DNA of 64,000 nucleotides, taken from the NCBI GenBank assembly GCA_016212965.1, contig JACRDA010000308.1, positions 1-64,000 of the forward strand, read 5' to 3'. A model generated the notes under the pieces. The model made no database searches and was not told where the DNA came from. It was given only the letters and a program-made list of their open reading frames with translations. The stretch comes from Myxococcales bacterium. Lineage in GTDB: Bacteria > Myxococcota_A > Polyangia > Polyangiales > Polyangiaceae. Made by a program: the position numbers and the translations under genes. Shown piece by piece: positions 30,282-63,117 of this stretch (position 1 is the first letter of the stretch; every line of letters starts with the position of its first letter).

Positions 30282-30293
30282 CGGCCGCGTGCG

Positions 30294-32999
30294 ATGAAGG
30301 TCGTCAAGCCCGTCAAGGTGCCGGTGCTGTCTCGCGTCGTCGAGATGGCGCGGCAGCCCGTGTTCCACGTCGCAGGCCTGCTCGGCTTTCCGCTGGCGTC
30401 GCCGCGCGCGTTGCTCGACGAGCTCGGCTTCTGGAAGACGGTTCGGACCGTGCTCGGAGAGAATGGCGTCGTCGACGAAGGCACGGCCAAGGGCCGCGCC
30501 GAACTGCTCGTGGCGGGCAGCTTCCATGCTCCGGGGGGCGCGCCGTGCACGAGCGGGTTCGCCCGGGCGAAGCTCGGCGCCATCGACAAGCGCGTGGCGG
30601 TCCTCGGGGATCGCTACTGGCGACGCGGCGAGCAGACGGCGCCGGCGCCGTTCACAGAAATGCCGATCGACTGGGCGCATGCCTTCGGGGGCCCGAGCTT
30701 CGCGCGCAATCCCGCCGGCAAGGGCGCCGAGCCCGTCGAGCACGACGGCGTCGAGGTGCACCCACTACCCAATATCGAGCACCACGGCGCACTCATCCGC
30801 TCCGCACGTGAGAGACCCGAGCCTGCGGGCCTCGGCGCGTTCGATCTCAGCTACCCGCAGCGCCGCGCGCACGCCGGGACCTACGACAAGGGCTGGCTGG
30901 AGCAGCATTATCCCGGCATGCCACCCGATGCCGACGCGACGTTCTTCAACCTCGCGGCCGCGGACCAATGGCTCGCAGAGGGGTCCTTCCGGGGCGACGA
31001 GGAGTTCCTCGTCGAGAACATGAGCCCCTCGGCGGCGCGCATTACCGGTCGCTTGCCCGGGCTGGCACTGCGATCTTTCGTGACCCAACGGGGTCGTGCG
31101 GGCGAGGTCTTCTTCGAGATTCCGATGCGCTGCGACACCGTGTGGCTCATGCCCGGCGCTGGTGTCGGGGTGGTGGTCTTCCACGGTAGGTGGCGCGTGC
31201 TCGAGGACGACGCGGCCGACATCGTTCACCTGCTGACGGCGTGCGAGGAGACTGGAGCGCGGCGACCGCTCGACCACTACCGTGCGTGCCTGGCCCGGCG
31301 CCTCGACAAGGACCAGGGCGCGATCGCGAGCCTCTCCGACCGAGACCTGATGCCCGCGCGAGAGTCGGGCGTGGCGCCCAACTTCGACGGTGGCGACTTC
31401 GGACGCTGGCTGAAGACCGAGTCGCTCCCCGTCCAGCACGGGCTTCGGGGCGTCGCGCGGCAGCGCAAGCGCGCCGAGGACACGCTGAAGGAAAAGGGTA
31501 TCGACATCAGCCATCTGCCGCCGGCACCGCCCACCCCCATCTTCGCAGTCCCCGATCAGAGCGATCTCGACGCGGTCGCGGAGCACCTCGTCGAGCTACA
31601 GAAGCTGGGAGAGCAACAGCTCGCGGACGCCAAGGTCCAGAAGGCGCAGCTCGTCGAACGGGCGCGCCAGCGGCTGGCCGAGCAAGACCGCGACTACGAC
31701 GCCTGGGTCGACGAGCAGCAGGCCGCCGCCGGCGGTCCGGTCAAGCTGCCCTCCTACGAGCAGGTCGCGCAGCTCGAGCAGGTGGTGGCGCAGGCGCGCG
31801 CGGCCGGCACGCCCCTGCCGACGCTCGAGACGGCGCTCGCCGGCGGGCGCCTGAAGGAGCAGCTCGCCGAGCACCAAGCCCGCGCGGACGCGGCGTACCG
31901 CGCGAGCGCGCACCTGACACCGGGCAAGGCGAGCCGTGGCCACGAGGAGGAGGCGCGCCTGCGCGTCATCGTGCAGGCTGCGCTCGATAGTGGCGAGAGC
32001 CTCGCCGGCCGCGATCTGACGGGCGCCAGGCTCGCGGGGATGGTGCTCGCGGGCATCGATTTGACGGGCGCGTTCCTCGAGGCGGCCGACCTGTCCGGGG
32101 CCGACCTGCGCGGCGCGAAGCTCCGGAACGCAGTGCTCGCCAAGGCCACCTTGCGCGGCGCGAACCTGTCCGGTGCGGACCTCGGCGGCGCGAACCTGGG
32201 CGCCGCCGATCTACGGGACGCGACGTTGACCGGGGCGAACATGGCACGGGCTGTGCTGGGGCGCGCGACGCTCGCCGGTACGAGCCTCTGCGACGCCGAT
32301 CTCACCGGCGCGGATTGGCTCGAGGTGCAGTTCGCCGGCGTCGATCTCGGCGGCGCGAAGCTGCCGCAGTGCGCCTTCCTCGCGGTCGATCTGCGCGGCT
32401 CGAGCTTCGCGGGCGCCGACCTCAGCCGCGCCACGTTCGTGGCTTGCCAGCTCGAGGGCGCGAGCTTCGCCGGCGCGATGCTCGGCAAGGCCACGCTCGT
32501 CGACTGCCGGGGCACCGGCGCGTCGTTCGCAGGTGCGAAGATGGCGCAGGCCACGATTCTGTCCGGCTCGGCGCTGCCCGGCGCCAACTTCGCCGACGCG
32601 GATCTCGAGAGGGCGTGCCTGCGAACGACGGCTTTCCCGGGGGCCTGCTTCGATCGCGCCAATCTAGCCGGCGCCGACCTCTCGGAGTGCGACGCAACGG
32701 GAGCGAGCTTCGAGCGCGCCATGCTCGGGCGCGCCATGCTGGTCCGCACGAAGCTCGGAGGTGCCTCGTTCGCGGGGGCCAACCTGATGAACGCGATGCT
32801 CTCCAAGGCGCAGATCCCGGGAGCCGACTTCACGGGCGCGAATCTCTTCCAGGCCGATCTGGCGCGTGCCGTCGGTGACGACCGGACGCGCTTCACCGAG
32901 GCGGAACGCGGCCGGGTGCGCGTGGAGCCCAAGGCGTCACCGGCCGCGACGGGCCCCATGCCCGGCGACCCGCCGCCGGAGTCGGGAGGCGTGACGTGA
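30294..32999 (+). CDS. DUF2169 T6SS adaptor fused to pentapeptide repeats
   Basis: A 901-residue protein 12 bases after vgrG. Residues 1-300 are a DUF2169 domain (GFPLASPRALLDELGFWK, then FTEMPIDWAHAFGGPSFARNPAGKG, a conserved stretch in this family). Residues about 380-540 are a charged helical/coiled-coil linker, and from about 560 to 870 there are long runs of pentapeptide repeats of the A(D/N)LxG type that form a right-handed quadrilateral beta-helix. DUF2169 proteins are encoded beside VgrG genes and are thought to help load or shape the spike or its cargo. It overlaps the next gene by four bases (GTGA), so translation is coupled. A paralogue is at 60490. Confidence 0.88.
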   Translation: MKVVKPVKVPVLSRVVEMARQPVFHVAGLLGFPLASPRALLDELGFWKTVRTVLGENGVVDEGTAKGRAELLVAGSFHAPGGAPCTSGFARAKLGAIDKRVAVLGDRYWRRGEQTAPAPFTEMPIDWAHAFGGPSFARNPAGKGAEPVEHDGVEVHPLPNIEHHGALIRSARERPEPAGLGAFDLSYPQRRAHAGTYDKGWLEQHYPGMPPDADATFFNLAAADQWLAEGSFRGDEEFLVENMSPSAARITGRLPGLALRSFVTQRGRAGEVFFEIPMRCDTVWLMPGAGVGVVVFHGRWRVLEDDAADIVHLLTACEETGARRPLDHYRACLARRLDKDQGAIASLSDRDLMPARESGVAPNFDGGDFGRWLKTESLPVQHGLRGVARQRKRAEDTLKEKGIDISHLPPAPPTPIFAVPDQSDLDAVAEHLVELQKLGEQQLADAKVQKAQLVERARQRLAEQDRDYDAWVDEQQAAAGGPVKLPSYEQVAQLEQVVAQARAAGTPLPTLETALAGGRLKEQLAEHQARADAAYRASAHLTPGKASRGHEEEARLRVIVQAALDSGESLAGRDLTGARLAGMVLAGIDLTGAFLEAADLSGADLRGAKLRNAVLAKATLRGANLSGADLGGANLGAADLRDATLTGANMARAVLGRATLAGTSLCDADLTGADWLEVQFAGVDLGGAKLPQCAFLAVDLRGSSFAGADLSRATFVACQLEGASFAGAMLGKATLVDCRGTGASFAGAKMAQATILSGSALPGANFADADLERACLRTTAFPGACFDRANLAGADLSECDATGASFERAMLGRAMLVRTKLGGASFAGANLMNAMLSKAQIPGADFTGANLFQADLARAVGDDRTRFTEAERGRVRVEPKASPAATGPMPGDPPPESGGVT

Positions 33000-34060
33000 A
33001 CCGCGAGCGCTTGCTCGACGCGATCCACCACGCGGAGCCCATTCGCGAACTGGACCTGTCCGCGCTCGATCTCAGCGGGGTCGACCTCGGAGGGGGGATG
33101 TTCGAGAGCGTGCGGTTCCCGGCGGCAATGCGGGGAGCACGGTTGCGCGAGGCCAACGTCATCGCCTGCGACTTCTCGCGCTGCCGGCTCGACGAGACCG
33201 ACTGGCATCTCGCCAGCGTGATCCAGACGACCTTCCAGCGCGCGCGCCTCACGGGCAGCAACCTCACCGCCGCCAAGTTCGCGCAATGCAGCTTCGATGG
33301 CGCCGCCCTTGGCGGCGTCGAGGCTCCGCTGGCAGCCTGGGTGAACAGCTCGCTCTGCGGCGCGTCGTTCGTGGGGGCGGAGCTCGAGCGGGCCACCGTG
33401 CTCGAGACCGACGTGGCGGGCGCCACCTTTGCCGGCGCCAATCTCGACAAGGCGACCCTGCTGAAGCTCGACCTCACGACGGTGGAGCTCGCAGGCGCAA
33501 ACCTGACGCTGACGACGCTCATCGATGCCAAGCTCGGACCCAAGGACTTCGCCAAGTGCCGGCTGTTCCGCACCCAGTTCATGCGGAGCGAGCTCGAGGG
33601 CGCGAGCTTCGCCGGCTGTGAGCTCGTGCAGTGCAACTTCATGGCCGCAGCGCTGCGAGGCGCGCGCTTCGACGGGGCGCGGGCCGGGCAGTGCTTCTTC
33701 GGCGAGGCAGCGCTCGAAGACGCGCGATTCGCAGGCGCGTTCCTGAAGCAGGCGGTGTTCGAGAAGGCGCGGTTGGCGCGTGCCGATTTCACCGGAGCCA
33801 TGCTCGAGGAGGCCGTCTTGACGCAGACGCAGTGCGAGTCGGCGAAGTTCCTGCGCGCCACGCTGACCCACGCGGACTTCTCGCACGCGGAGCTCGACGG
33901 GGCGGACTTCACCGGAGCGCGCCTGTTTCGCACCAAGTTTCATCTCGCCCGTCGCGAGCAGGCGATCCTGCCGCGCGCCACGGGCTGGATCGGCGAGGAC
34001 GAAGAGCTGGCCAGGGCGGAGCTCTGGCGGCCGCAGCACGGCAAGGAGACGAGTCAATGA
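32996..34060 (+). CDS. Pentapeptide-repeat protein of T6SS locus A
   Basis: A 354-residue protein made almost entirely of pentapeptide repeats (A(D/N/S)(L/F)xx), for example LDLSALDLSGVDLGG at the start and ADFTGAMLEEAVLTQ near the end. GTG 32996 overlaps the upstream stop, and the end overlaps the next start (ATGA). The expected shape is a single long beta-helix rod. Many central residues are aromatic or cysteine (QCSFDG, LVQCNFMA), unlike gyrase-protecting Qnr proteins, and the context points to a spike-associated or cargo-binding role rather than quinolone resistance. The function has not been established for this family member. Confidence 0.82.
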   Translation: MNRERLLDAIHHAEPIRELDLSALDLSGVDLGGGMFESVRFPAAMRGARLREANVIACDFSRCRLDETDWHLASVIQTTFQRARLTGSNLTAAKFAQCSFDGAALGGVEAPLAAWVNSSLCGASFVGAELERATVLETDVAGATFAGANLDKATLLKLDLTTVELAGANLTLTTLIDAKLGPKDFAKCRLFRTQFMRSELEGASFAGCELVQCNFMAAALRGARFDGARAGQCFFGEAALEDARFAGAFLKQAVFEKARLARADFTGAMLEEAVLTQTQCESAKFLRATLTHADFSHAELDGADFTGARLFRTKFHLARREQAILPRATGWIGEDEELARAELWRPQHGKETSQ

Positions 34061-34626
34061 CCGCCGCACGGAGACTTCGCGAACTGGACAGTCGGTTGGT
34101 GTCGGGTGTGGTCGTGGAGACCAGCCCGAGGCTGCAGGTGCGCATCGGCGAGGAGCTCTACTCGGTGCTTCGGGCGAAGAGCTGCCTGGTGGCACCGGAG
34201 CAGCGGGACCGGGTCCTGTGCGCCATCGAGCACGACGCCGTGTTCGTCCTCGCGGTTCTCTCCGGAGCCGAGGGAGCGACGACCCGCGTCACCGCCGCGG
34301 GCGACGAGCTGTCGATCGAGGCTCGGCAGATCACCATCCGGGCCGAAGCCGGCACCGTGGCCGTGGATCGACTCGGGGTCTTCGGGAGCCTCGTGAACGC
34401 CCAGGTCCGCAAGGTAGTGCTCCTCGCCGACCAGCTCGACGCGGTCGCCGAGCGCATTGCGCAGCGGGCCAAGCGCGTGTTCCGGTTCGTGGAGGACGTC
34501 GACCAGCTGCGCGCCGGCATCGTGGACATCCGGGCCGAGAGCCTGGCGGCGATCCGCGCCGAGAATGCCCTCATCTCGGCCCGCGTCCTCGCCAAGATCG
34601 ACGGCGAGCAGATCAACCTCGGCTGA
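34057..34626 (+). CDS. DUF3540 protein (T6SS accessory)
   Basis: A 189-residue protein with ATG 34057 overlapping the stop of the previous gene. After a short N-terminus it has beta-rich segments (LQVRIGEELYSVLRAKSCLVAP, RDRVLCAIEHDAVFVLAVLSG) and a helical C-terminal half (VNAQVRKVVLLADQLDAVAER to RVLAKIDGEQINLG), the pattern of DUF3540. Members of this family occur almost only in VgrG/PAAR loci together with DUF2169 and DUF4150 genes, and are inferred to assist spike assembly. Four-base overlaps before it and a 12-base gap after it place it in one operon with the PAAR-like gene. Confidence 0.8.
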   Translation: MTAARRLRELDSRLVSGVVVETSPRLQVRIGEELYSVLRAKSCLVAPEQRDRVLCAIEHDAVFVLAVLSGAEGATTRVTAAGDELSIEARQITIRAEAGTVAVDRLGVFGSLVNAQVRKVVLLADQLDAVAERIAQRAKRVFRFVEDVDQLRAGIVDIRAESLAAIRAENALISARVLAKIDGEQINLG

Positions 34627-34637
34627 AGGAGCGGACC

Positions 34638-35039
34638 ATGCTGGCGAAGAGCTCTGCCGGTGGCATGTGCCTGGCGTTTCCGGACGTGTGCCTCACCCCT
34701 GCGCCTCCGGCGCCGGCGCCGGTGCCGATCCCCTATCCGAACACGGGCGTCGAGCCGACCGACACGACGTTCGTCACCAACGTGCTCATCACCTGCACGC
34801 CGGCCCACAACATGTCGACCGAGCCGGTGATGACCAACGGCGACAACGCGGGCGTCGCGACCGGCGTCGCATCCGGCACGGTCATGGGGCCGGCGCGGAC
34901 GATCACGGCGGCGTTCACGTGCATCGTCGGTGGCATGCCGCTGTCGCGGCTCACTTCCATGACGCTCCAGAACAACACGAACGCACCGGGCGCCAAGATC
35001 GTGCCGAGCGCCACCAACGTGCTGGTCCTGGCGCCGTAG
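34638..35039 (+). CDS. PAAR-like DUF4150 spike-tip protein
   Basis: A 133-residue protein. ATG 34638 has a clear AAGGAG ribosome site about 8 bases before it. The whole length is a PAAR-like/DUF4150 domain: an opening CLAFPDVCLTPAPPAPAPVP, then IPYPNTGVE, NVLITCTPAHNMSTEPVMTNGDNAG and a late FTCIVGGMPLSRLTSMT. PAAR proteins cap the VgrG trimer and sharpen the spike; some carry toxin domains, but this one has none. It closes locus A. The next gene starts 58 bases on and encodes an unrelated peptidase. Confidence 0.85.
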   Translation: MLAKSSAGGMCLAFPDVCLTPAPPAPAPVPIPYPNTGVEPTDTTFVTNVLITCTPAHNMSTEPVMTNGDNAGVATGVASGTVMGPARTITAAFTCIVGGMPLSRLTSMTLQNNTNAPGAKIVPSATNVLVLAP

Positions 35040-35097: not shown

Positions 35098-37149
35098 ATG
35101 CCATCGCCCCACCGTCGCTCGCCCCTGCTCGGTCTCGTCGTCGCCGGTCTCGTCTCCGCGGGCTGCGCCGCGCCCATGGGCTCGATCGGCAAGGGCTCGA
35201 TCGGCCCGACCACGCCCCAGCAGGGCCTCACCACGCAGGCGCGGCCCGCCCCCGGCGGCTCCGCGGCGACGCCGCCCCCGAGCCCGGGGCAGTTGCCCGA
35301 CGCCAACATGGATCGGGCCGCGATCCCCGACCGCTACAAGTGGAAGCTCGACGTCCTGTTCGCGAGCGACCAGGCGTTCGAGCAGGGCATGAAGGACGTG
35401 GCCGAGAGGCAGAAGGAGCTCGGCGCCTACGCCGGCAAGCTCGGCAAGCCGGCCGAGCTCCGCGCCTGCCTCGAGCGCTACTTCGAGGCGCGGCTCGCGA
35501 CGAACAAGCTCACGCTCTACGCGAACCTGCGCTTCGACAGCGCGCAGAAGTCGAACGAGCTCCAGGGCATGAACGACCGCGCGCAGGCCGCGATGCAAGA
35601 GCTCATGCGCGCGGCCTCGTTCATCCGCCGCGAGGTGCTCCTGCTCGACGACGCCGCGCTCGCGGCCGCCTACCGCGCCGAGCCGAAGCTCGCGGGCTAC
35701 AAGCCCTACCTCGAGGAGCTCCGCCGCCGGCAGAAGCGCGTGCTCGGCCCCGACGCGGAGCGCGCGCTCGCGCTGCTCGGCGACAACCTCTGGGCGGAGA
35801 TCGATCTCAACGAGCTCACCGCGGACGTCGAGCGGATCTACAAGTCGGCGCGCGCCGACCTGGTGCTGCCGAAGATCACGGACGAGGCGGGCAAGGAGGT
35901 GCAGCTCACCCTCGCGAACTACGGCAAATACCGCGGCTCGACCGACCGGCGCGTGCGCCGCGACACGGTCGAGGCCTTCTTCGGAGCGCTGCGCGGCGCC
36001 GAGAACACCTTCGCCGCGACGCTCGCGGGCCAGATGAAGCTCGACGTCGGCTTCGCGCGGGCGCGCGGCTACGACACCGCCCTCGCCGCCTACCTCGACA
36101 AGGACGACATCGATCCCGGCGTCTACCACGGCATGGTGAAGGCCCTGCACGCCAATGTCGCGCCGCTGCACCGCTACGTGAAGCTGCGCAAGCAGCTGAT
36201 GGGCCTCGACGAGCTGCACATCTACGACCTCTACGGCCCGATGTTCGAGGGCTCGAAGCGGCAGTTCGGCTACGACGAGGCCGTGCGCATCCTGCCCGAG
36301 GCGCTCGCGCCGCTCGGCGACGCGTACGTCGCCGAGCTCCGGCGGGGCCTCGACCCGGCCCAGGGCTGGATCGACGTCTACCCGCACAAGGACAAGGACT
36401 CGGGCGCCTTCTCGGTGAACGTCTACGGCGTGCACCCGTTCCTCAAGATGAACTACCAGGACGACGCCGAGGACCTGTCGACGCTGGCGCACGAGTACGG
36501 CCACGCCATCCACAGCGCGCTCGCGATGAAGGCGCAGCCCTACGTGACGGCCGGCTACGTCCCCTTCATCGCCGAGATCGCCTCGACCCTGAACGAGAAG
36601 CTCCTGTCGGACTACCTCTTCGCCCACGCCAAGGACGACGACGAGCGACTGTCGATCTTGAATCGCCTGGTCGAGAGCATTCGCACGACCATCTATCGCC
36701 AGGCGATGTTCGCGGAGTTCGAGCTGCGCGCGCACACGGCCGTCGAGGCGGGGACGGCCCTCACCGCGGAGTGGCTCGACGCGCAGTATGGCGAGCTCCT
36801 GCGCACCTACTACGGACCCGACCTCACGCTCGGCCAGAACGACGCGGTCGAGTGGGCCTACATTCCGCACTTCTATTACAAGTACTACCTCTATGCCTAC
36901 GCGACCGGCCTCGCGTCGGGCATCGCGCTCGCCGACAAGGTGCAGAAGGAGGGCGCGCCCGCGCGCGACGCCTACCTCGGCATGCTGAAGGGCGGCTCGT
37001 CCAAGCCGCCGCTCGAGCTGCTCCGCGGCGCGGGCGTCGACCTCACGAAGCCCGACGCCATCGAGGCCGCGGCGCGCCTCCTGGACCGGACGCTCGGTCA
37101 GATCGAGGAAATCCTGGCGCGCCGGGCGGGCGCCACGAAGACCCCCTGA
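35098..37149 (+). CDS. pepF: M3-family oligoendopeptidase F-like lipoprotein
   Basis: A 683-residue metallopeptidase of usual family length. It has a lipoprotein signal (VVAGLVSAGC, Cys23) and a Gly/Pro linker, then the helical M3 fold. The zinc site is intact: HEYGH at residues 465-469 in LSTLAHEYGHAIHSAL, with the third ligand Glu about 25 residues later in PFIAEIASTLNEKLL. The late motif YAYATGLASG is typical of PepF. It should cleave short peptides outside the cytoplasm. It lies next to T6SS locus A but looks like a house-keeping enzyme rather than an effector. Its 3' end overlaps the convergent porin gene by 52 bases. Confidence 0.88.
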   Translation: MPSPHRRSPLLGLVVAGLVSAGCAAPMGSIGKGSIGPTTPQQGLTTQARPAPGGSAATPPPSPGQLPDANMDRAAIPDRYKWKLDVLFASDQAFEQGMKDVAERQKELGAYAGKLGKPAELRACLERYFEARLATNKLTLYANLRFDSAQKSNELQGMNDRAQAAMQELMRAASFIRREVLLLDDAALAAAYRAEPKLAGYKPYLEELRRRQKRVLGPDAERALALLGDNLWAEIDLNELTADVERIYKSARADLVLPKITDEAGKEVQLTLANYGKYRGSTDRRVRRDTVEAFFGALRGAENTFAATLAGQMKLDVGFARARGYDTALAAYLDKDDIDPGVYHGMVKALHANVAPLHRYVKLRKQLMGLDELHIYDLYGPMFEGSKRQFGYDEAVRILPEALAPLGDAYVAELRRGLDPAQGWIDVYPHKDKDSGAFSVNVYGVHPFLKMNYQDDAEDLSTLAHEYGHAIHSALAMKAQPYVTAGYVPFIAEIASTLNEKLLSDYLFAHAKDDDERLSILNRLVESIRTTIYRQAMFAEFELRAHTAVEAGTALTAEWLDAQYGELLRTYYGPDLTLGQNDAVEWAYIPHFYYKYYLYAYATGLASGIALADKVQKEGAPARDAYLGMLKGGSSKPPLELLRGAGVDLTKPDAIEAAARLLDRTLGQIEEILARRAGATKTP

Positions 37150-39171: not shown

Positions 39172-39175
<4 letters not shown>
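39083..39175 (+). CDS. kdpF: KdpF, small subunit of the Kdp potassium ATPase
   Basis: A 30-residue peptide starting [20 protein letters not shown] and ending [10 protein letters not shown]. This matches KdpF (single helix followed by a LxRPExF/L-type end). ATG 39083 follows a GGAGG site at about 39070. Its TGA overlaps the ATG of the kdpA part (ATGA), showing translational coupling. In known systems KdpF stabilises the KdpABC complex at the membrane. Confidence 0.85.
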
Positions 39176-41805
<2,630 letters not shown>

Positions 41806-53385: not shown

Positions 53386-55734
53386 ATGATCCACGACCAC
53401 TTCTCCCTCCTCGCACCCGACCTCGGCGAAGGCCTGCGCGTGCTCGCGTTTCGCGGCACGGAGGCGATCTCGACGTCGTACCTGTTCGAGGTCTTCTTCC
53501 TCGGCGCGGCCAAGGCCATCGACGAGGCCGCCGCGGCCGTCGGGTCGGGCGCAACGCTGCAGGTGAACGCCGAGGACGGGTCGGCCGTGCTCGCGTGGCG
53601 CGGGATCGTCGAGGCGGTCGAGATCGTCGAGGCGCACGGCGAGCGCGCCCTCTACCGGGTCGAGCTGCGCCCGCGCCTCCACCGCCTGACGCACGAGGTG
53701 CACAGCCGCATCTGGGTGGACAAGGACGTGCCGGCCATCGTGAAGGAGCTCCTCGACGCCGCCACGGTCGGGCACTCGCTGGCGCTCGACGGGACCTACA
53801 CCGCGGTCGAGCACATCGGCCAGTACCACGAGACCGACTTCGACTTCGTGAGCCGCCGGCTCGAGCGCGAGGGCATCCACTACTACTTCGACCACGAGGG
53901 CGACGAGGAGAAGCTCGTCGTGACCGATCGCGGCGCGACCCACGACCCGTCGCCTGCCGCACCCGTGCGCTTCGTCCCGCTCGCCGATCAGTCGACCCAG
54001 GCCATGGCCGGGGAGGCGATCTACCGCTTTCGCGCGCGCCACGGGACCGTGGCGTCCGACATCCTCCTGCGCGACTACGACTACCTGAAGCCCGCGCTCG
54101 CCCTCGAGGGCGAGGCCGCGGTCGCGTCGGGTCACCAGGGCAAGGTCGCCGTGTTCGGCACGGCGCTGCGCGATCCGGGCGAGGCGAGCCACCTCGCGAC
54201 GGTGCGCGCCGAAGAGCGCGCCATCCCCGTCGCGACCTACCACGGCACGGGCAGCGTGCTCGGCCTGCGCACGGGCTACGAGCTCGAGCTCACCGAGCAC
54301 CCGTGGAGCAGCCTCGACGGGAAATACCTCGTCACGCGCCTCCGGCACCGCGGCGTCGACCACGCGCGCGTGCGCCAGTTCGCGCGCGCCATCGACCCCG
54401 ACGGCGAGTGGCTCGCGGGCGGGGGCGCCGAGGATCCGTACCGCGTCGACTTCGACGCCGTGAAGAGCGGCGTGCCCTTCCGGCCCGAGCGCAAGACGCC
54501 CTGGAAGCGCGTGGACGCGCTCGAGCACGCGCGCGTCGACGGCCCCGCGGACGACGACTACGCGCAGATCGACGACCACGGGCGCTACCACGTGCGCCTG
54601 CTCTGGGACGAGACCGAGGCGAAGGCGGGCGGCAACAGCACCTGGGTGCGCATGCTCCAGCCCCACGCCGGCGCGCCCGAGGGCTGGCACTTCCCCCTGC
54701 GCAAGGGGACCGAGGTGCTCGTCGCCTTCGTGCGCGGCGATCCGGACCGGCCGCTCATCGTCGGCACGGCCCACAACCCCGAGGTCCCGAGCCCCGTCAC
54801 GAGCCAGAACGCGAGCCAGAACGTGCTTCAGACCGGGGGCAAGAACCGCCTCGAGATCGAGGACCAGGCGGGCAAGGAGTACCTGGCCTGGACCTCGCCG
54901 ACCCAGACCTCGACCCTGCACCTCGGCGCGAAGGCGGGCCCCTACCAGGAGGCCCACAACGCCACCCTGCGCACCGACGGCGACGCGAAGGTCCACGCCG
55001 GCGGCGCCCGGCACATCACGGTCGTCGGCGAACAGACCGAGGACGTGCAGGGCAACGTGGTCGAGGACTACCACTCGAGCCAGACGACCCACGTCGACGG
55101 CGACTGGACGGAGACGATCGACGCCGGCGCGACGCAGACCATCTCGGCCGGCGAGACGCGCACCGTCCACGCCGGCGTGACCGAGACCATCACCGGCGGC
55201 GAGACCCGCACCATCACGGGCGATCAAACCGAGGACGTGTCGGCGAACGTGACCTGCACCATCGGCGCGAACCGCTCGGACACGATCGGCGCGAGCTCGA
55301 CCGTGAGCATCGGCGCGAACAGCACGTTGACGGTGGGAGGGGCGCAGACGGCGACGATCACCGGAGGCGTGACGCAGACCATCGGGGGCAACTTCACGCT
55401 CATCGCGGCCGGGCCGGTGACCTTCACGGCCGCGGCGGGTTTCACGGTCCTGGCGCCGGGGGGCGTCAACATGATCGACAACGGCAACGACCACAAGGGC
55501 TTCAAGAACGAGAACGAGTACGCCGAAGCGGTCAAGGTACTGGGCATCAAGGCGGAGGCCATCGGCATCGAGACCAAGGTCGTCCGCCTGGGTATCGAGC
55601 GCCTCGGCGCCGGCGTGGACTTGATCGCCGGCGTCAAGAACGAGAAGTGGGCCAGCCAGAAGAAGATCATCGGTGGCTGGATGAAGCCCACGGGGCTCGT
55701 CCAGCTCATCACGGTCTTGCACAAGCTGGGCTGA
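53386..55734 (+). CDS. vgrG: T6SS spike protein VgrG, first of three (locus B)
   Basis: A 782-residue VgrG from ATG 53386. The gp27-like base (FRGTEAISTSYLFEVFF, GQYHETDFDFVSRRLEREGIHYYFDH), the gp5 OB fold (YAQIDDHGRYHVRLLWDETE, HFPLRKGTEVLVAFVRGDPDRPLI) and a beta-helix with about 11 octad repeats (TxTIxxGx, residues about 580-670) are present. The last 110 residues are helical and charged (YAEAVKVLGIKAEAIGIETK), with no enzyme motif. The spacing to the next VgrG is 31 bases, so all three are probably one transcript. The upstream 265 bases contain GTGCTAAGCTCG, which might include the -10 of the locus. Confidence 0.92.
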   Translation: MIHDHFSLLAPDLGEGLRVLAFRGTEAISTSYLFEVFFLGAAKAIDEAAAAVGSGATLQVNAEDGSAVLAWRGIVEAVEIVEAHGERALYRVELRPRLHRLTHEVHSRIWVDKDVPAIVKELLDAATVGHSLALDGTYTAVEHIGQYHETDFDFVSRRLEREGIHYYFDHEGDEEKLVVTDRGATHDPSPAAPVRFVPLADQSTQAMAGEAIYRFRARHGTVASDILLRDYDYLKPALALEGEAAVASGHQGKVAVFGTALRDPGEASHLATVRAEERAIPVATYHGTGSVLGLRTGYELELTEHPWSSLDGKYLVTRLRHRGVDHARVRQFARAIDPDGEWLAGGGAEDPYRVDFDAVKSGVPFRPERKTPWKRVDALEHARVDGPADDDYAQIDDHGRYHVRLLWDETEAKAGGNSTWVRMLQPHAGAPEGWHFPLRKGTEVLVAFVRGDPDRPLIVGTAHNPEVPSPVTSQNASQNVLQTGGKNRLEIEDQAGKEYLAWTSPTQTSTLHLGAKAGPYQEAHNATLRTDGDAKVHAGGARHITVVGEQTEDVQGNVVEDYHSSQTTHVDGDWTETIDAGATQTISAGETRTVHAGVTETITGGETRTITGDQTEDVSANVTCTIGANRSDTIGASSTVSIGANSTLTVGGAQTATITGGVTQTIGGNFTLIAAGPVTFTAAAGFTVLAPGGVNMIDNGNDHKGFKNENEYAEAVKVLGIKAEAIGIETKVVRLGIERLGAGVDLIAGVKNEKWASQKKIIGGWMKPTGLVQLITVLHKLG

Positions 55735-55765
55735 CGGCCGAAACCCCACACCGAGCGAGCTCGAC

Positions 55766-58126
55766 ATGACGGATCTCTACGTAGTCGCCATCGACGGCCT
55801 GCCCACCGGTACCCGGGTCGCCGCCTTCGTCGGGCGCGAGGCCATCTCCGAGTGCTTCGCCTTCGAGATCTCCCTCGTCGTGCCAGCGCAGGACGGGTCG
55901 TTTCAACCGGAGATGCTCGTGGGCGCCGAGGCGTGCCTGTCCTTCGGCGACGCCGAGCCGGGCGCGCAGCCGCTCTGCGCGGGTGTCGTGGCCGGGGCCG
56001 AGCTGGTGCAGGCCACCTCGAGCCACGGCTTCTTGCGCGTCACCGTGCGACCACACCTCTTTCGTCTCTCGCTCGCGCGCCAGAGCCGCATCTGGACGGA
56101 CAAGAAGGTGAGCGACGTCGTGAAGGACGTGCTCGAACGCGCGGAGCACCAGGGTCACGAGCTCAAGCTCGAGGGCGACTACCCCGAGCACGTCCACATC
56201 TGCCAGTACCACGAGACCGACCTCGAGTTCTTCGAGCGACGGCTCGAGCGCGACGGCATCTTCTACTGGTTCGAGCACGCCGCGGGCGGCGAGAAGCTCG
56301 TTCTGGCCGACTCGGCGGGAGGCTGCGGTACTGGCCCGACGTGCAGATTTCGCCGCGCCGGTGCCGGCGCCGCCGAGGGCGGCAGCGCGGCGATCCTGCG
56401 CCTCGGCTCCCGCAAGGAGCTCACGTCGAAGAAGGTCAAGCTCGGCGATTACGACTACCTGCACCCCGCCCTCGCCGTCACCGGCGAGGCGGCGCCGCCT
56501 GGCGGCCTGCTCGGCGAGGTCTCCCTCTTCGGAGGCAACCTCCTCACCCCGGGCGACGCGAAGCGCCTGGCCAAGGTGAGGGCCGAGCGCCTGGGCGTGG
56601 AGGCCGAGCGCTACACGGGCACCGGGACCGTGCGGACCCTGCGGAGCGGCTGCGTCTTCGAGCTCGAGGAACACCCGCTCGCGGACCTCAACGGCAAGTA
56701 CCTCGTCACGGAGCTCCACCACAGTGGCGTGGATCTCGGCCTCATGCGCACCTTCGGAGCCCTGCTCGACGTCGACGCGCCCGGCACGACCCACCACGCT
56801 CGCAGGGCGCGCATGGGCGCCGAGGCCGAGCCCTACCACGTGGAATTCTCGGCCGTCCGAGAGGCTCAGCCCTTCCGCCCGGCCCTGCGGCGCCCGGTGC
56901 CGCGCGTCCCCGGCCTCGAGTACGGTGTCGTCGATGGTCCGGCCGACAGCGACTCCGCGCAGATCGACGAGCACGGCCGCTACCGGACGCGCCTCTTGTT
57001 CGACGAGGCGGACGCGGACGCGGCGAAGAACAGCGCCTGGCTCCGCATGATCCAGCCGCACGCCGGCGCGCCCGAGGGCTGGCACCTGCCCCTGCGCAAG
57101 GGCACCGAGGTGCTGGTGGCGTTCGTCGCGGGCGAGCCCGATCTGCCGGTGATCGTCGCCGCCGTGCCCAACGCCGTCACGCCGAGCCCGGTCACGGCGA
57201 GCAACCACACGCACAACGTGTTCCAGTCGGGCGGCAAGAACCGCGTCCAGATCGAGGACCAGGACGGCAAGCAGTACGTGGCCGTGTTCTCGCCGCCCGA
57301 GAAGACCACGCTTCACCTCGGAGCCTCCGACGGCCAGTATGCCGAAGGCCATCACGCCACCGTGCGAACCGACGGCGACATCCGCATCCACGCGGGCGCC
57401 AACCGGCACATCACCGTCGGCGGCGAACAGACCGAGGACGTCGGCGGCGACGTGACCGAGACCTACCACGCCACCCAGGCGACCCACGTCTTCGGCGCCT
57501 TCACCGAGACCATCGACGCGGGCGCCACCCAGACCATCAACGGCGGCGAGACGCGCACGGTCGACGGCGGCGTCACCGAGGACATCTCCGGGGGCGAGAC
57601 GCGCAGCATCACCGCCAACCAGACCGAGACGATCTCGGCCAACCTGACGCGCACCATCGGCGCGGATCTCTCGGACACGATCGGTGCCAACGCCACGTTC
57701 ACCGTCGGGGCCGGTCAGACCGAGACGACGGGAGGCGCGCGCACGGAGGACGTCGGAGGCAACGTCACCATCGTGACGGCGGGCGCCTACGACTACACCG
57801 CGATCGGCGGCGCCACCTGGAGCACACCCGGAGGCTTCACGCTGCTCGCGCCCGGGGGCGTGTCGGAGACGGACCAGGAGCACGAGGGCGAGGGTGGCAA
57901 GTTCCTGCAGATGTACGGCGCCTCGACGGAGGCGGCGGCCTTCGTGTTCGACATCGCTTACATCGTGACGGAGGTCATCGGGGCGAAGGTCGAAATGAGC
58001 ATGGACAAGCACGAGGGCGGAGGCGCCAAGGTCGAGGCCGTGGGCTCCATCCAGCACTCACGCGCGCGACACGCGGGCCGGATGGCGCTGAGCGCAATCA
58101 CCTTCGGCTTCCTCAACTGGACGTGA
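55766..58126 (+). CDS. vgrG: T6SS spike protein VgrG, second of three (locus B)
   Basis: A 786-residue VgrG. Base (VGREAISECFAFEISLVVP, CQYHETDLEFFERRLERDGIFYWFEH), OB fold (SAQIDEHGRYRTRLLFDEADADAAKNSAWLRMIQPHAG) and beta-helix with octad repeats (TQTINGGETRTVDGGVTEDI and onward) are all recognisable. The C-terminal extension (about residues 700-786) is predicted helical, partly hydrophobic (AAAFVFDIAYIVTEVIGAKVEM), then a basic stretch, and ends FGFLNWT. It differs from its neighbours' extensions. This could be a docking surface for a different cargo. No catalytic residues are recognised. Confidence 0.92.
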   Translation: MTDLYVVAIDGLPTGTRVAAFVGREAISECFAFEISLVVPAQDGSFQPEMLVGAEACLSFGDAEPGAQPLCAGVVAGAELVQATSSHGFLRVTVRPHLFRLSLARQSRIWTDKKVSDVVKDVLERAEHQGHELKLEGDYPEHVHICQYHETDLEFFERRLERDGIFYWFEHAAGGEKLVLADSAGGCGTGPTCRFRRAGAGAAEGGSAAILRLGSRKELTSKKVKLGDYDYLHPALAVTGEAAPPGGLLGEVSLFGGNLLTPGDAKRLAKVRAERLGVEAERYTGTGTVRTLRSGCVFELEEHPLADLNGKYLVTELHHSGVDLGLMRTFGALLDVDAPGTTHHARRARMGAEAEPYHVEFSAVREAQPFRPALRRPVPRVPGLEYGVVDGPADSDSAQIDEHGRYRTRLLFDEADADAAKNSAWLRMIQPHAGAPEGWHLPLRKGTEVLVAFVAGEPDLPVIVAAVPNAVTPSPVTASNHTHNVFQSGGKNRVQIEDQDGKQYVAVFSPPEKTTLHLGASDGQYAEGHHATVRTDGDIRIHAGANRHITVGGEQTEDVGGDVTETYHATQATHVFGAFTETIDAGATQTINGGETRTVDGGVTEDISGGETRSITANQTETISANLTRTIGADLSDTIGANATFTVGAGQTETTGGARTEDVGGNVTIVTAGAYDYTAIGGATWSTPGGFTLLAPGGVSETDQEHEGEGGKFLQMYGASTEAAAFVFDIAYIVTEVIGAKVEMSMDKHEGGGAKVEAVGSIQHSRARHAGRMALSAITFGFLNWT

Positions 58127-58147
58127 CGTCGACTGCCCGAGGACGAG

Positions 58148-60478
58148 ATGGATCGCTTCAAACTCGAGATCGATGGGGTCGACGGACTGCGCGTCGCGGC
58201 GTTCGCCGTCGACGAGCGCATCTCGGCGCCCTACCTGGCGCGTGTGTTCGCGTCGCTCCCCGAGGCGGACCTCGGGTCCCTCGACGGCGTCCTCGGCAAG
58301 CGCGGCGCGCTCACGGTCCCGGGCGCGGACGACGCGGCTTCCCTCCACTTCCCGGGCATCGTGACCGCGCTCGAGCTGATGCACACCTTCGGCGAGCGAG
58401 CGCTCGTCGAGGTCGTCTTGCGGCCGACGCTCTGGGGCCTCGGGCTCGAGTGCCACAGCCGCGTGTGGGTGAAGAAGAAGGTGCTCGACGTCGTCAAGGA
58501 GCTGCTCGACAAGGGCGGCGTCGCGCACGAGCTCCGGACCGAGGCGAGCTACGTCGAGCACGAGCACGTCTGCCAGTACCGCGAGACGGACCTCGACTTC
58601 GTCGCCCGCTCTCTCGAGCGCGACGGCCTGCACTACTACTTCGAGCTCGCCGAGGGCGAGGACAAGCTCGTCGTCTCCGACGGTCCGCACGCCACGGACC
58701 TGCACCCGCCTTCGCCCGTCCGCTGCGTGGGCTCCTTCGACGCGGGCGCCGCGGGCAGCGTGGGCGAGACGCTCCACGGCTTCGCCGCCCGCCGCTCCGC
58801 CCGGAGCAAGGAGGTCGAGGTCGCCGACTACTACTCCCCGAAGCCGGCGCTCGCGCTCCGCGAGCGCAAGCCCGTCATCGATCCGGCGCTCGGCACCGCG
58901 ATCGCGTTCGGAGGTCAGGCCTGGTCACCCGCCGAGGCGAAGCGCCTCGCGCAGGTGCGCGCCGAGCAGGCGGCAGCCGAGGCCGTCCTCTTCCGCGCGA
59001 CCGGCACGGTCCTCGGCCTGCGCGCGGGCTACCACTTCGAGGTGGGCGAGCACCCGATCGCCGACCTGCTCGGCGAGTACCGAGCCGTGGCGGTCCGGCA
59101 CCTCGGCTTCGACGCCGTCGCGGGCCGCGGGCTCGAGGCGTGGATCGATCCCGAGCGCGCGTGGCTGCGCGCCGACGGCCTGCCTTACCACGTGAGCGTC
59201 GAGGCCGTCCGGGCCGACGTCCCCTACCGCGCCGCGCGCAAGACGCCGTGGCCCCGCGCCCACGGCCTCGAGCACGCGCGCGTGGATGGCGCGGCCGATG
59301 GGGACTACGCGCAGCTCGACGACCAGGGTCGCTACCGCGTGAAGCTCCTCTTCGACGAGAACGACTCCCCCGCCGGGGAGGCGAGCGCCCTCTTGCGCCT
59401 GATGCAGCCCCACGGCGGCGCGCCCGAGGGCTGCCACTTCCCGCTCCGCAAGGGGACGGAGGTCCTCGTGGCCTTCGTCGAGGGCGACCCCGACCAGCCC
59501 GTGCTGGTGGGCGCCGTGCCCAACCCCGAGACCCCGAGCACGGTCACCGACGCGAACAACACGCAGAACGTCATCCAGACGGGCGGCAAGAACCGCATCG
59601 AGGTCGAGGACAAGGCGGGCTCCGAGTACGTCGTGCTCTACTCGCCGCCCGAGAAGACGACGCTCCACCTCGGCGCCTCCGACGGGCCCTACGCCGACGG
59701 ACACCACGTGCGCCTCAGCACCGACTGCGACGCCAAGATCCACGCGGGAGGGGCGCGCCACATCACCATCGGCGCCGAACAGACCGAGGACGTGACGGGA
59801 CGGGTCGTCGAGGACTACCACAGCGATCAGACGACCCACGTGTACGCCGCCTTCGACGAGACGATCGACGGCAGCGCCACCCAGACCATCCATGCGGGCG
59901 AGACCCGGACCGTCACGGGCGGCCTGACCGAGACCATCACCGGTGACGAGACGCGGAGCGTCGCGCCCGATCAAACCGAGGACGTGTCGGCCTCCGTCAC
60001 GCGCACGATCGGCGCCAACCTGACCGAGACCGTCGGCGCGGCCGTGGACCGCACCATCGGCGCCGACGAGACGATCTCCGTGGGCGGCAACGTGACCCAG
60101 ACCATCGCGGGCGGCGTCACGACGAGCACGCCGGCGGCGCTGTCGGTCACGACGGGCGGCAGCGCGACCTTCATCGCACCGTCGGGTTTCACCATCAGCG
60201 CGCCCGGCGGCTTCCACAACGTCGACGGCGAGTGGGTGAAGACCGGTGGCTGGGAGAAGGACGCCTTCGTCGAGAAGGGCTCGCTCGTCGGGTTCAAGCT
60301 CGAGATCATGGCGGTGGCGGCGTCGGTCGCGGTATCGCGCATCTCCGGAACGGTTGCGAAGCTCGCCTACATCGCGACGGAGTTCGAGGCGGAGACCGAC
60401 GAGGAGGAGGACGAGCCGATCGAGCTCTGCGAAGGCGGGCTCTTGCTCGAGCCCTCCGGCAACCACAGCGAATCCTGA
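58148..60478 (+). CDS. vgrG: T6SS spike protein VgrG, third of three (locus B)
   Basis: A 776-residue VgrG, 22 bases after the previous one. Base (CQYRETDLDFVARSLERDGLHYYFEL), OB fold (YAQLDDQGRYRVKLLFDENDSPAGEASALLRLMQPHGG) and an octad-repeat beta-helix (TQTIHAGETRTVTGGLTETI and onward) are recognisable. The C-terminal extension contains a moderately hydrophobic helix (MAVAASVAVSRISGTVAKLAYI) and an acidic stretch (ETDEEEDEPIELCEGG). Its N-terminal domain is the most diverged of the three. It is followed 12 bases later by a DUF2169 adaptor, repeating the gene order of locus A. Confidence 0.92.
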   Translation: MDRFKLEIDGVDGLRVAAFAVDERISAPYLARVFASLPEADLGSLDGVLGKRGALTVPGADDAASLHFPGIVTALELMHTFGERALVEVVLRPTLWGLGLECHSRVWVKKKVLDVVKELLDKGGVAHELRTEASYVEHEHVCQYRETDLDFVARSLERDGLHYYFELAEGEDKLVVSDGPHATDLHPPSPVRCVGSFDAGAAGSVGETLHGFAARRSARSKEVEVADYYSPKPALALRERKPVIDPALGTAIAFGGQAWSPAEAKRLAQVRAEQAAAEAVLFRATGTVLGLRAGYHFEVGEHPIADLLGEYRAVAVRHLGFDAVAGRGLEAWIDPERAWLRADGLPYHVSVEAVRADVPYRAARKTPWPRAHGLEHARVDGAADGDYAQLDDQGRYRVKLLFDENDSPAGEASALLRLMQPHGGAPEGCHFPLRKGTEVLVAFVEGDPDQPVLVGAVPNPETPSTVTDANNTQNVIQTGGKNRIEVEDKAGSEYVVLYSPPEKTTLHLGASDGPYADGHHVRLSTDCDAKIHAGGARHITIGAEQTEDVTGRVVEDYHSDQTTHVYAAFDETIDGSATQTIHAGETRTVTGGLTETITGDETRSVAPDQTEDVSASVTRTIGANLTETVGAAVDRTIGADETISVGGNVTQTIAGGVTTSTPAALSVTTGGSATFIAPSGFTISAPGGFHNVDGEWVKTGGWEKDAFVEKGSLVGFKLEIMAVAASVAVSRISGTVAKLAYIATEFEAETDEEEDEPIELCEGGLLLEPSGNHSES

Positions 60479-60489
60479 GGCAGCACGGC

Positions 60490-63117
60490 ATGCGAGTGTT
60501 CAAGCCGCGCAACGTGGGCCTCCTCTTCCGGACGGTGGAGCGCGCCCAGCGCTACCACTTCTGCGTCGCCGGGCTCCTCTTCGTGCCCCTCGACGCGACC
60601 CGCACCCTCCTTCCCGAGGCCCAGATGTGGAAGGCGGTGCCCAAGCTGCTCGGCAAGGACGCCGTGCTCGACGAGATGGTCGCGAAGACCCACGGCGAGC
60701 TCCTCCTCAAGGGCTCCGTCTACGCGCCCGACCAGAAGCCGGTGCCGGTCTGCGTGGCGCGCGTACAGCTCGGCCCGGTCGAGAAGCGCATCGTGGCGAT
60801 CGGCGATCGCGTCTGGCGCCGCGGCGCGCCGACCGAGCCCGCACCCTTCACCGAGATGCCGCTCGACTGGGAGCACGCCTTCGGGGGCGCGGGCTTCGCA
60901 TCGAACCCGCTCGGCAAGGGCTACGCGCCAATCGAGGGGCCCGACGGCAAGGTGCACCCCCTACCCAACGTCGAGTACCCCGAGCGGCTGATCAAGAGCC
61001 CCGGAGACCGCCCTGCGCCCGCGAGCTTCCTGCCCCTCGACCTCACGTGGCCCGAGCGCTGGAAGAAGGCCGGCACCTACGATCGCAGCTACCTCGAGAC
61101 GGATTTTCCGGGTCTGGCGCGCGACGCCGACTGGACGATGTTCAACACTGCGAGCCCGGATCAGTGGGCGCCCGGCCACTTCTCCGGTGACGAGAGCTTC
61201 GTGCTCGAGAACCTCCACCCGACGCGCCGACGCATCGAGGGGCGACTGCCGGGCGCAGCGATGCGGATCTTCATCGTGAGGAAGGGAGAGCCCGTCGCCG
61301 AGCCCACGAGCCTGGCCATGCGGCTCGAGACCGTCTGGTTCTTCCCCGACGTCGAGCGCGCGGTGCTCATTTACCGCGGCACGACGGACGTGAGCGAGGA
61401 CGATGCCGACGACCTCGAGCACCTGCTCATCGCCTGCGAGGACGCCGCCGCGCCGAAGCCCGACGCCCACTACTGCGACGCGCTGGCAGCACGCCTCGAC
61501 CCGGAGCGCCAGATGGAGGCGATGAAGCGCGAGGACGACTTCTTGCCCGCCTGGCCCGCGACGGACGTGGCGGAGCTCGTGGACGAGATGGCGGCGGTCA
61601 AGATCGAGGGCTTCGCCATGCAGAACCAGCTCCGCAAGGCCGAGCGCGAGATCGTCCAGTCGCGGGCCGCGGTGGCGGCCCTCGGGCTCGACCCCGACAA
61701 GCACGGCCCGCGCTCGCTGCCTGCGCCGCGCAAGCCCGACGAGCCGCCGAAGAGGCGCGCCGACGTCGAGCGCGAGATGCAGGAGGGCGAGGCGAAGACG
61801 CGCGCCAGTGCGCAGGCCAGGCGCGCACGCCGCCGCGAGCAGTTCGAGAAGCTCGGGCTCGACTACAGCGTGGTCGAGAAGGAGATGGACAGCCTGCCCT
61901 GCGGCCCGCCGAAGCCCATCGCGGACGAGAAGCTCCGCTGGCTCGAGGGAATGCTCGTGCAGGCGCGGGGGCACGGCGTCGACCTCCCGGACGTGACCGC
62001 CCTCCTCGAGGACGAGGCGTTCCGGGCGCGCCTCCACGCCATGGACGACGCAGAGCGCGACTCGTACCTCCTGACGGCGCACGAGCGGCCGGCCGCCCCG
62101 CGCCGGGCGCCCGAGGACTCCGAGCGCCTGCGCGCCGAGCTCGGCCGCCTCCGCGACGCGGGGCTGCCGGTCAGGAACCTCGACCTCACCGGCGCCGACC
62201 TCTCCCGGCTCGACCTGTCGGGCCTCGACCTCGAGCGCGCGTTCCTCGAGGGGGCCGATCTTCGCGGCGCCAACCTCGCAGGGGCGAAGCTCACCGAGGC
62301 GGTCCTCACGCGCGCCAAGCTCGAGGGGGCGCGGTTCGACGGGGCGAGCCTCGTGGGCGCGAACCTCGGCGACTGCGAGGCCGTGCAGGCGAGCTTCCGC
62401 GAGTGCGACTTCGAGCGCGCGCTGCTCGTGAGGACCAACTTCGAGGGCGCGACGCTCGACGGGGCGAGCCTCGCCGGGGCGGACTTCACCGAGGGGCGCT
62501 TCGGCGGCGCCTCGTGGCGCGGCGTGAAGGCCCAACGCACGGCCTTCATCCGCACGAACCTCACCGGGCTCGATTTCTCGGGTGCGGACCTCGAGCGCGC
62601 GAACTTCATCGAGGTGGACGCCGCCGGGGCGAACTTCGGTCGGGCGCGCATGTGCAACGCGGGCTTCGTCACGTCCAAGGTCGACGGCGCGAGCTTCGCG
62701 GGCGCCGACCTCACGAAGGCCACGTTCCTCATCGACACGACCGCCGTGGGCGCCAACTTCACGGGCGCCCAGGCCCTCGAGTCGAACTACCGGGGCACCA
62801 AGCTCGACGGCGCCGACTTCTCGGCTGCGCGCCTCGACTGCTCGGACTTCAGCACCTGCTCGCTGCGCCAGGCAAAGTTCGTCGGCGCCGACGCCAAGCG
62901 CACGCGCTTCGTGCGCGCCGACCTCGGGGACGCGGACCTCACGGGCGTCGATCTTGCCGAGGCCGTGCTCCAGAAGGCCCACCTCGAAGGCGCGAAGCTC
63001 GACGAGGCGAACCTCTTCCAGGCCGATCTCTCGCTCATCTGGGGCAGCCCCGAGACGACGAGCAAGGGCGCCAACTTCACCCGCACCCGCGTCCACCCCC
63101 TGCGCAAGAAGAAGTGA
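60490..63117 (+). CDS. DUF2169 T6SS adaptor fused to pentapeptide repeats (locus B)
   Basis: An 875-residue paralogue of the protein at 30294. ATG 60490 opens MRVFKPRNVGLLFRTVERAQ, and the DUF2169 domain spans to about 290 (PFTEMPLDWEHAFGGAGFASNPLGKGY). A long charged helical middle follows (about 380-540, with REIVQSRAAVAALGLDP and MQEGEAKTRASAQARRARRREQ), then pentapeptide repeats from about 560 to the end (NLDLTGADLSRLDLSGLDL...). A cysteine-containing repeat (SDFSTCSLRQAKF) is near the end. It overlaps the next gene by one base (TGATG), so translation is coupled. Confidence 0.88.
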   Translation: MRVFKPRNVGLLFRTVERAQRYHFCVAGLLFVPLDATRTLLPEAQMWKAVPKLLGKDAVLDEMVAKTHGELLLKGSVYAPDQKPVPVCVARVQLGPVEKRIVAIGDRVWRRGAPTEPAPFTEMPLDWEHAFGGAGFASNPLGKGYAPIEGPDGKVHPLPNVEYPERLIKSPGDRPAPASFLPLDLTWPERWKKAGTYDRSYLETDFPGLARDADWTMFNTASPDQWAPGHFSGDESFVLENLHPTRRRIEGRLPGAAMRIFIVRKGEPVAEPTSLAMRLETVWFFPDVERAVLIYRGTTDVSEDDADDLEHLLIACEDAAAPKPDAHYCDALAARLDPERQMEAMKREDDFLPAWPATDVAELVDEMAAVKIEGFAMQNQLRKAEREIVQSRAAVAALGLDPDKHGPRSLPAPRKPDEPPKRRADVEREMQEGEAKTRASAQARRARRREQFEKLGLDYSVVEKEMDSLPCGPPKPIADEKLRWLEGMLVQARGHGVDLPDVTALLEDEAFRARLHAMDDAERDSYLLTAHERPAAPRRAPEDSERLRAELGRLRDAGLPVRNLDLTGADLSRLDLSGLDLERAFLEGADLRGANLAGAKLTEAVLTRAKLEGARFDGASLVGANLGDCEAVQASFRECDFERALLVRTNFEGATLDGASLAGADFTEGRFGGASWRGVKAQRTAFIRTNLTGLDFSGADLERANFIEVDAAGANFGRARMCNAGFVTSKVDGASFAGADLTKATFLIDTTAVGANFTGAQALESNYRGTKLDGADFSAARLDCSDFSTCSLRQAKFVGADAKRTRFVRADLGDADLTGVDLAEAVLQKAHLEGAKLDEANLFQADLSLIWGSPETTSKGANFTRTRVHPLRKKK

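Follow-up and report, generated by a model that had tools for sequence, protein, structure and literature searches.

A Tvp class III system is described from Serratia marcescens Db10, with a set comprising VgrG1, TvpAB, TvpB, TvpC and Paar1 (Monlezun 2026, PMC13373197); assembly in two steps by way of a TvpC pre-complex is among the traits of the class. In that work, the VgrG C-terminus extends the beta-prism and has a hydrophobic end, TvpC is a VgrG-like trimer, and both TvpAB and TvpB wrap around the tip and PAAR; the published model has a single copy of each at the tip (PMC13373197). The last 26 residues of S. marcescens VgrG1 are hydrophobic, and a membrane-depolarising activity depends on this protein. 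In other systems, C-terminal VgrG extensions recruit specific cargo (PMC13373197). VgrG1 and VgrG2 of S. marcescens apparently do not combine into heterotrimers. As in the locus described here, three VgrGs carry different tails in Vibrio cholerae and Aeromonas dhakensis, where there is evidence that a single VgrG is insufficient (PMC8668125, as excerpted). The same excerpt traces the apparent need for heterotrimers in A. dhakensis to effectors and chaperones.

Here, we analyse three tandem VgrG genes in a stretch of 64,000 nucleotides of myxobacterial DNA, referred to below as the window. These genes are accompanied by a Tvp class III set, which the excerpted text on V. cholerae and A. dhakensis does not describe. 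We found no description of VgrG triplication in Tvp class III operons in the open-access literature.

Results

Gene content and layout of the operon

The features of the locus are as follows.

53386..55734, + strand: VgrG1, 782 aa; hub, OB domain, octad stalk and tail; PF05954 (4e-66), PF04717, PF22178, TIGR03361
54985..55464, + strand: VgrG1 octad beta-prism stalk, residues ~534-693; 8-residue register, modelled strands every 8 residues, 24-nt tandem repeats
55465..55731, + strand: VgrG1 tail, 89 aa; net charge ~+3, three G-x-K-x-E, hydrophobic end
55766..58126, + strand: VgrG2, 786 aa; PF05954 (7e-71), PF04717, PF22178, TIGR03361
57380..57859, + strand: VgrG2 octad stalk, residues ~539-698; gapless alignment to VgrG1 and VgrG3, 24-nt tandem repeats
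57860..58123, + strand: VgrG2 tail, 88 aa; net charge ~-4, two G-x-K-x-E, hydrophobic end
58148..60478, + strand: VgrG3, 776 aa; PF05954 (5e-53), PF04717, PF22178, TIGR03361
59732..60211, + strand: VgrG3 octad stalk, residues ~529-688; gapless alignment to VgrG1 and VgrG2, modelled strands
60212..60475, + strand: VgrG3 tail, 88 aa; net charge ~-13, one G-x-K-x-E, acidic, lacking a hydrophobic end
60490..63117, + strand: TvpAB, a DUF2169 domain fused to pentapeptide repeats, 875 aa; PF09937 (1.8e-82), PF00805
63117..64000 and past the window end (L025, 117-1172), + strand: TvpB, a stand-alone pentapeptide-repeat protein, 351 aa; gene calls and Pfam
Same contig beyond the window, after TvpB: TvpC, DUF3540, 218 aa; PF12059 (5e-56)
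Same contig beyond the window, after TvpC: PAAR-like protein, 132 aa; PF13665 (6e-32)
Same contig beyond the window, after the PAAR-like gene: ORF of 174 aa, with no match to a Pfam or PADLOC family

The three VgrG genes (53386-60478), called tandem in the sequence-only reading of this DNA, are complete, co-directional and tightly linked, with intergenic gaps of 31 and 21 bases; TvpAB begins 11 bases past VgrG3. The window ends inside the operon. Read onward along the contig, the order is three VgrGs, the DUF2169-pentapeptide fusion, the pentapeptide protein, DUF3540 and the PAAR-like protein. Promoter and terminator scans returned no matches. The locus thus contains the DUF2169-pentapeptide fusion, the separate pentapeptide protein, the DUF3540-type TvpC and the DUF4150/PAAR-like tip protein that characterise class III, and its identity as a Tvp class III T6SS spike-assembly operon is well supported. 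There is one PAAR-like gene, and cargo and immunity genes are not tripled.

The likeness to S. marcescens Db10 extends from the protein families to VgrG size (776-786 versus 786 aa), the long beta-prism and, in two of the three VgrGs, the hydrophobic C-terminus. The window differs in having three VgrGs rather than one and in its one acidic tail without a hydrophobic end, and no Vai1-like immunity gene was seen adjoining its VgrGs. DUF2169 synteny type C likewise combines a DUF2169-pentapeptide fusion with VgrG, DUF3540 and DUF4150 genes (Sachar 2025, PMC11883445, as excerpted); triplicated VgrGs, present here, go unmentioned in that excerpt.

The window holds a second class III operon at 27906-35039, with one VgrG (791 aa), TvpAB, TvpB, DUF3540 and a PAAR-like protein, followed by an M3 peptidase gene (35176-37149). 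Elsewhere in the window, an 877-aa frame at 39172-41805 combines KdpB-like ATPase domains with the start of KdpA, covering positions 2-223 of the 548 in the KdpA profile; it may be a fusion, a deletion or an assembly collapse. The whole genome has ~40 VgrG and ~30 DUF2169 matches. A search for T6SS core genes did not find TssF and TssK in this 86%-complete assembly; TssC and TssK are present in a sister species, in one core locus.

VgrG domains and octad stalks

Domain scans find a Phage_GPD hub, an OB domain and Gp5_C/Gp5_trimer_C repeats in each of the three proteins, which all far exceed the TIGR03361 cut-off and have the features of the VgrG/TssI family. Their stalks share an 8-residue register that runs, in a gap-free alignment, from about residue 534 of VgrG1 to the APGG at 690-693. 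In VgrG1 and VgrG2 the octads are visible in the DNA as 24-nt tandem repeats, and AlphaFold2 models of single chains place strands every 8 residues in VgrG1 (534-690) and VgrG3 (~520-693). The octad repeats noted earlier in all three proteins are therefore real. The bases were also said to be conserved; this is true only in the family sense, for the hubs are 46-48% identical in pairs. The stalks are 58-60% identical, with 0-1 gaps. At equal stalk levels, octad side-chain volumes show no compensation between chains; they go up and down in step, which is what paralogy would lead one to expect.

The same hub, OB domain and octad beta-prism are found in solved spikes of the VgrG/gp5 type, such as 8qja, 4mtk (P. 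aeruginosa VgrG1) and T4 gp5. The best match stops at VgrG1 residue 691, and no match covers the long class III tail.

Tails as variants of one tip module

The tails, which begin just past the APGG common to all three proteins, have 89, 88 and 88 residues and a pairwise identity of 16-23%. The sequence-only reading described them as charged helical, partly hydrophobic and acidic, and held that they differ completely. The net charges of the last 85 residues (+3, -4 and -13 for VgrG1, VgrG2 and VgrG3) fit the description; complete difference goes too far in that all three contain G-x-K-x-E, in three, two and one copies, respectively, and VgrG1 and VgrG2 keep the hydrophobic C-terminus typical of class III, which VgrG3 lacks. 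Across 123 class III VgrG tails, G-x-K-x-[ED] occurs 116 times versus 10.8 +/- 3.3 in shuffles, about eleven-fold more, and is spaced at 7/8 and 14/16 residues. Because the tails share this motif at 7/8 spacing, their sequences give good support to the view that they are diverged copies of one class III tip module, which is also found in single-VgrG operons, rather than three unrelated docking domains. No Pfam or NCBIfam family matches the tails at E 0.01, and hence there is no recognisable effector domain past the prism; at the same threshold, neither DUF2345 nor a TTR domain is matched in any of the three VgrGs.

One of the three tails lacks a hydrophobic end in each of the four triplets compared for this feature (window, C10, G007/G085-type and Desulfovibrio), by a cut-off picked after inspecting the data. 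Against a comparison set of a small number of single-VgrG operons, the triplets of the window, of L212 and of Desulfovibrio stand out by the charge spread of their tails. Those of C10 and G007 do not, and charge spread was dropped as a general rule for triplets. The tails of the L212 triplet (G135), which is unrelated to that of the window, resemble heptad coiled coils with strongly unequal net charges of -26, +2 and -7; this counts in favour of heterotrimers, for which L212 is a good test case.

Conservation of the tails

In a sister species (Polyangiaceae MAG, isolate SJ101), the operon recurs with its gene order unchanged; a contig end truncates the first VgrG. Each tail is conserved in its own position (85%, 86% and 90% identity; dN/dS 0.17, 0.25 and 0.20), whereas the stalks are 94-98% and TvpAB 95% identical. 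Purifying selection therefore acts on the tails, though their rate of change exceeds that of the stalk. A tail search of 108 family genomes gave strong matches in the sister species only, the others being weak (E > 0.01); one close relative of the window triplet is known. In a second triplet family, all three copies are kept throughout seven species; tails in the same position are 57-98% identical among the pairs compared, and those in different positions 21-31%. Disorder of the tails and lack of conservation in relatives would have spoken against the sequence-only reading, and the outcome is mixed. On the second count, the single close relative that has the tails conserves them. On the first, AlphaFold2 leaves the tails of VgrG1 and VgrG3 unfolded (pLDDT ~24) in single-chain models built on a six-sequence alignment, which say little about the trimer.

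Copy number and repeated origin

The class III operons that we gathered, from Polyangiaceae and Desulfovibrionaceae plus a few Proteobacteria, number 123 without duplicates. One adjacent VgrG is present in 90, two in one, three in about 14 and four in none; a further 19 are cut at contig edges or lack an adjacent VgrG. The triplets consist of 11 that were scored, the sister operon (cut by a contig end), the window operon and L228, whose four ORFs resemble three genes, one of them frame-broken. The break splits the first VgrG of L228 over two overlapping frames and is either a sequencing error or real. Gene calls and listed ORFs show no fourth VgrG upstream of the triplets.

In hub trees, separate clades are formed by the window (support 0.995), C10 (0.95/0.60), G007/G085-type (1.0) and Desulfovibrio (0.996) triplets. 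The L228 triplet is apparently separate too, and the copies in L212 are not one clade. Since these triplets each form their own clade, VgrG triplication has recurred, with at least four or five origins in class III operons according to the trees.

Two related operons outside class III (L028 and L029) have exactly two tandem VgrGs each. A gene family of 148-156 aa recurs 3′ of the PAAR-like gene (L093, L099, L105, L110, L111, L113, L115, L116, L121 and L125); the one member scanned has no Pfam or PADLOC match.

Matching of spikes within triplets

Within triplets, the length of VgrG past the OB domain varies by 0-2 residues in the window and G085-type operons and by 2-8 in C10; for single operons at comparable hub divergence, the median difference is 15. 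Stalk identity is also high in the window triplet. At a hub identity of 0.46-0.48, its stalks are 0.58-0.60 identical with 0-1 gaps, versus a mean of 0.30, a 95th percentile of 0.38 and 8 gaps for single pairs, or about twice the stalk identity predicted from hub divergence. G007/G088 triplets lie above or near the 95th percentile; C10 is not raised. Synonymous codon identity in the window triplet is near the usage expectation in hub and stalk alike, which makes recent gene conversion unlikely. Matched length and high stalk identity suit chains that intertwine, and a length constraint from shared chaperones would explain part of the pattern.

Discussion

We infer that this operon encodes a heterotrimeric spike. 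In the mechanism we propose, a single class III VgrG gene was triplicated in place, and the three products would assemble one of each into a spike of matched length, with one gene per protomer and one asymmetric Tvp set. The tail would be the end of the long beta-prism, gripped by PAAR and the Tvp chaperones. By analogy with the published model, a tip wrapped by a single TvpAB and a single TvpB would have three non-equivalent faces. Because one PAAR-like protein and an asymmetric TvpAB/TvpB wrap would act on the spike, the tip of each protomer may be specialised to a different face of the PAAR/Tvp complex. Judged from sequence, this account of the window operon is probable, if only just. The broader proposal, that obligate 1:1:1 heterotrimers arose on at least four or five separate occasions in class III operons, with the asymmetric chaperone wrap permitting face-specific protomers, is more tentative and falls somewhat short of an even chance.

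Support for the heterotrimer, which the sequence-only reading had raised as well, from repeated triplication to exactly three, matched lengths, co-evolving stalks and position-specific tail conservation is real, though indirect. Several observations count against it. In C10, stalk identity is not raised and the length match is not tight, octad compensation is absent, one operon has two VgrGs, L228 has its frame-break and L212 its copies outside a single clade. VgrG1 and VgrG2 of S. marcescens apparently do not mix, the need in A. dhakensis was traced to effectors in the excerpt cited above, and there is one close relative. Overall, we favour the heterotrimeric spike at about an even chance, and interchangeable homotrimers are its main rival.

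According to that rival, three alternative homotrimers expressed from one transcript share one Tvp/PAAR set and serve as interchangeable tips, for example diversifying a membrane-active C-terminal end. Single-VgrG class III operons presumably make homotrimers, the ends of VgrG1 and VgrG2 are hydrophobic like that of the membrane-depolarising S. marcescens VgrG1, and a shared Tvp set would constrain spike length as well. However, alternative homotrimers would make copy numbers of two, four or more no less likely than three, do not by themselves account for how alike the stalks of the window triplet are, and sit poorly with immunity genes that are not multiplied. We regard them as possible, but rather unlikely. 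The sequence-only reading had proposed that every tail might have its own cargo or adaptor to dock, in keeping with the strong differences in tail charge and sequence and with the cargo-recruiting extensions known elsewhere (PMC13373197). This now seems improbable, because cargo and immunity genes are not multiplied in triplet operons: each triplet is trailed by a single PAAR-like gene with no more than one further gene, and none of those examined has three cargo or immunity genes. Moreover, the tails lack DUF2345 or any other Pfam domain, share one PAAR-like protein and one Tvp set, and belong to a tip module that single-VgrG operons have too. It has also to be considered that the copies are redundant and in slow decay, the product of triplication without special function. 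The frame-broken VgrG of L228 and the abundance of VgrG matches in the genome would suit such decay, but purifying selection on three tails, retention of all copies in the seven species of the other triplet family and the repeated arrival at three make it very improbable.

VgrG heterotrimers have so far been argued mostly on genetic evidence, and a recurrent, length-matched three-gene set with one assembly set offers a clean natural test. If the heterotrimeric reading is true, gene triplication would repeatedly have turned a symmetric machine part into an asymmetric one, and a genome would not have as many spike types as VgrG genes.
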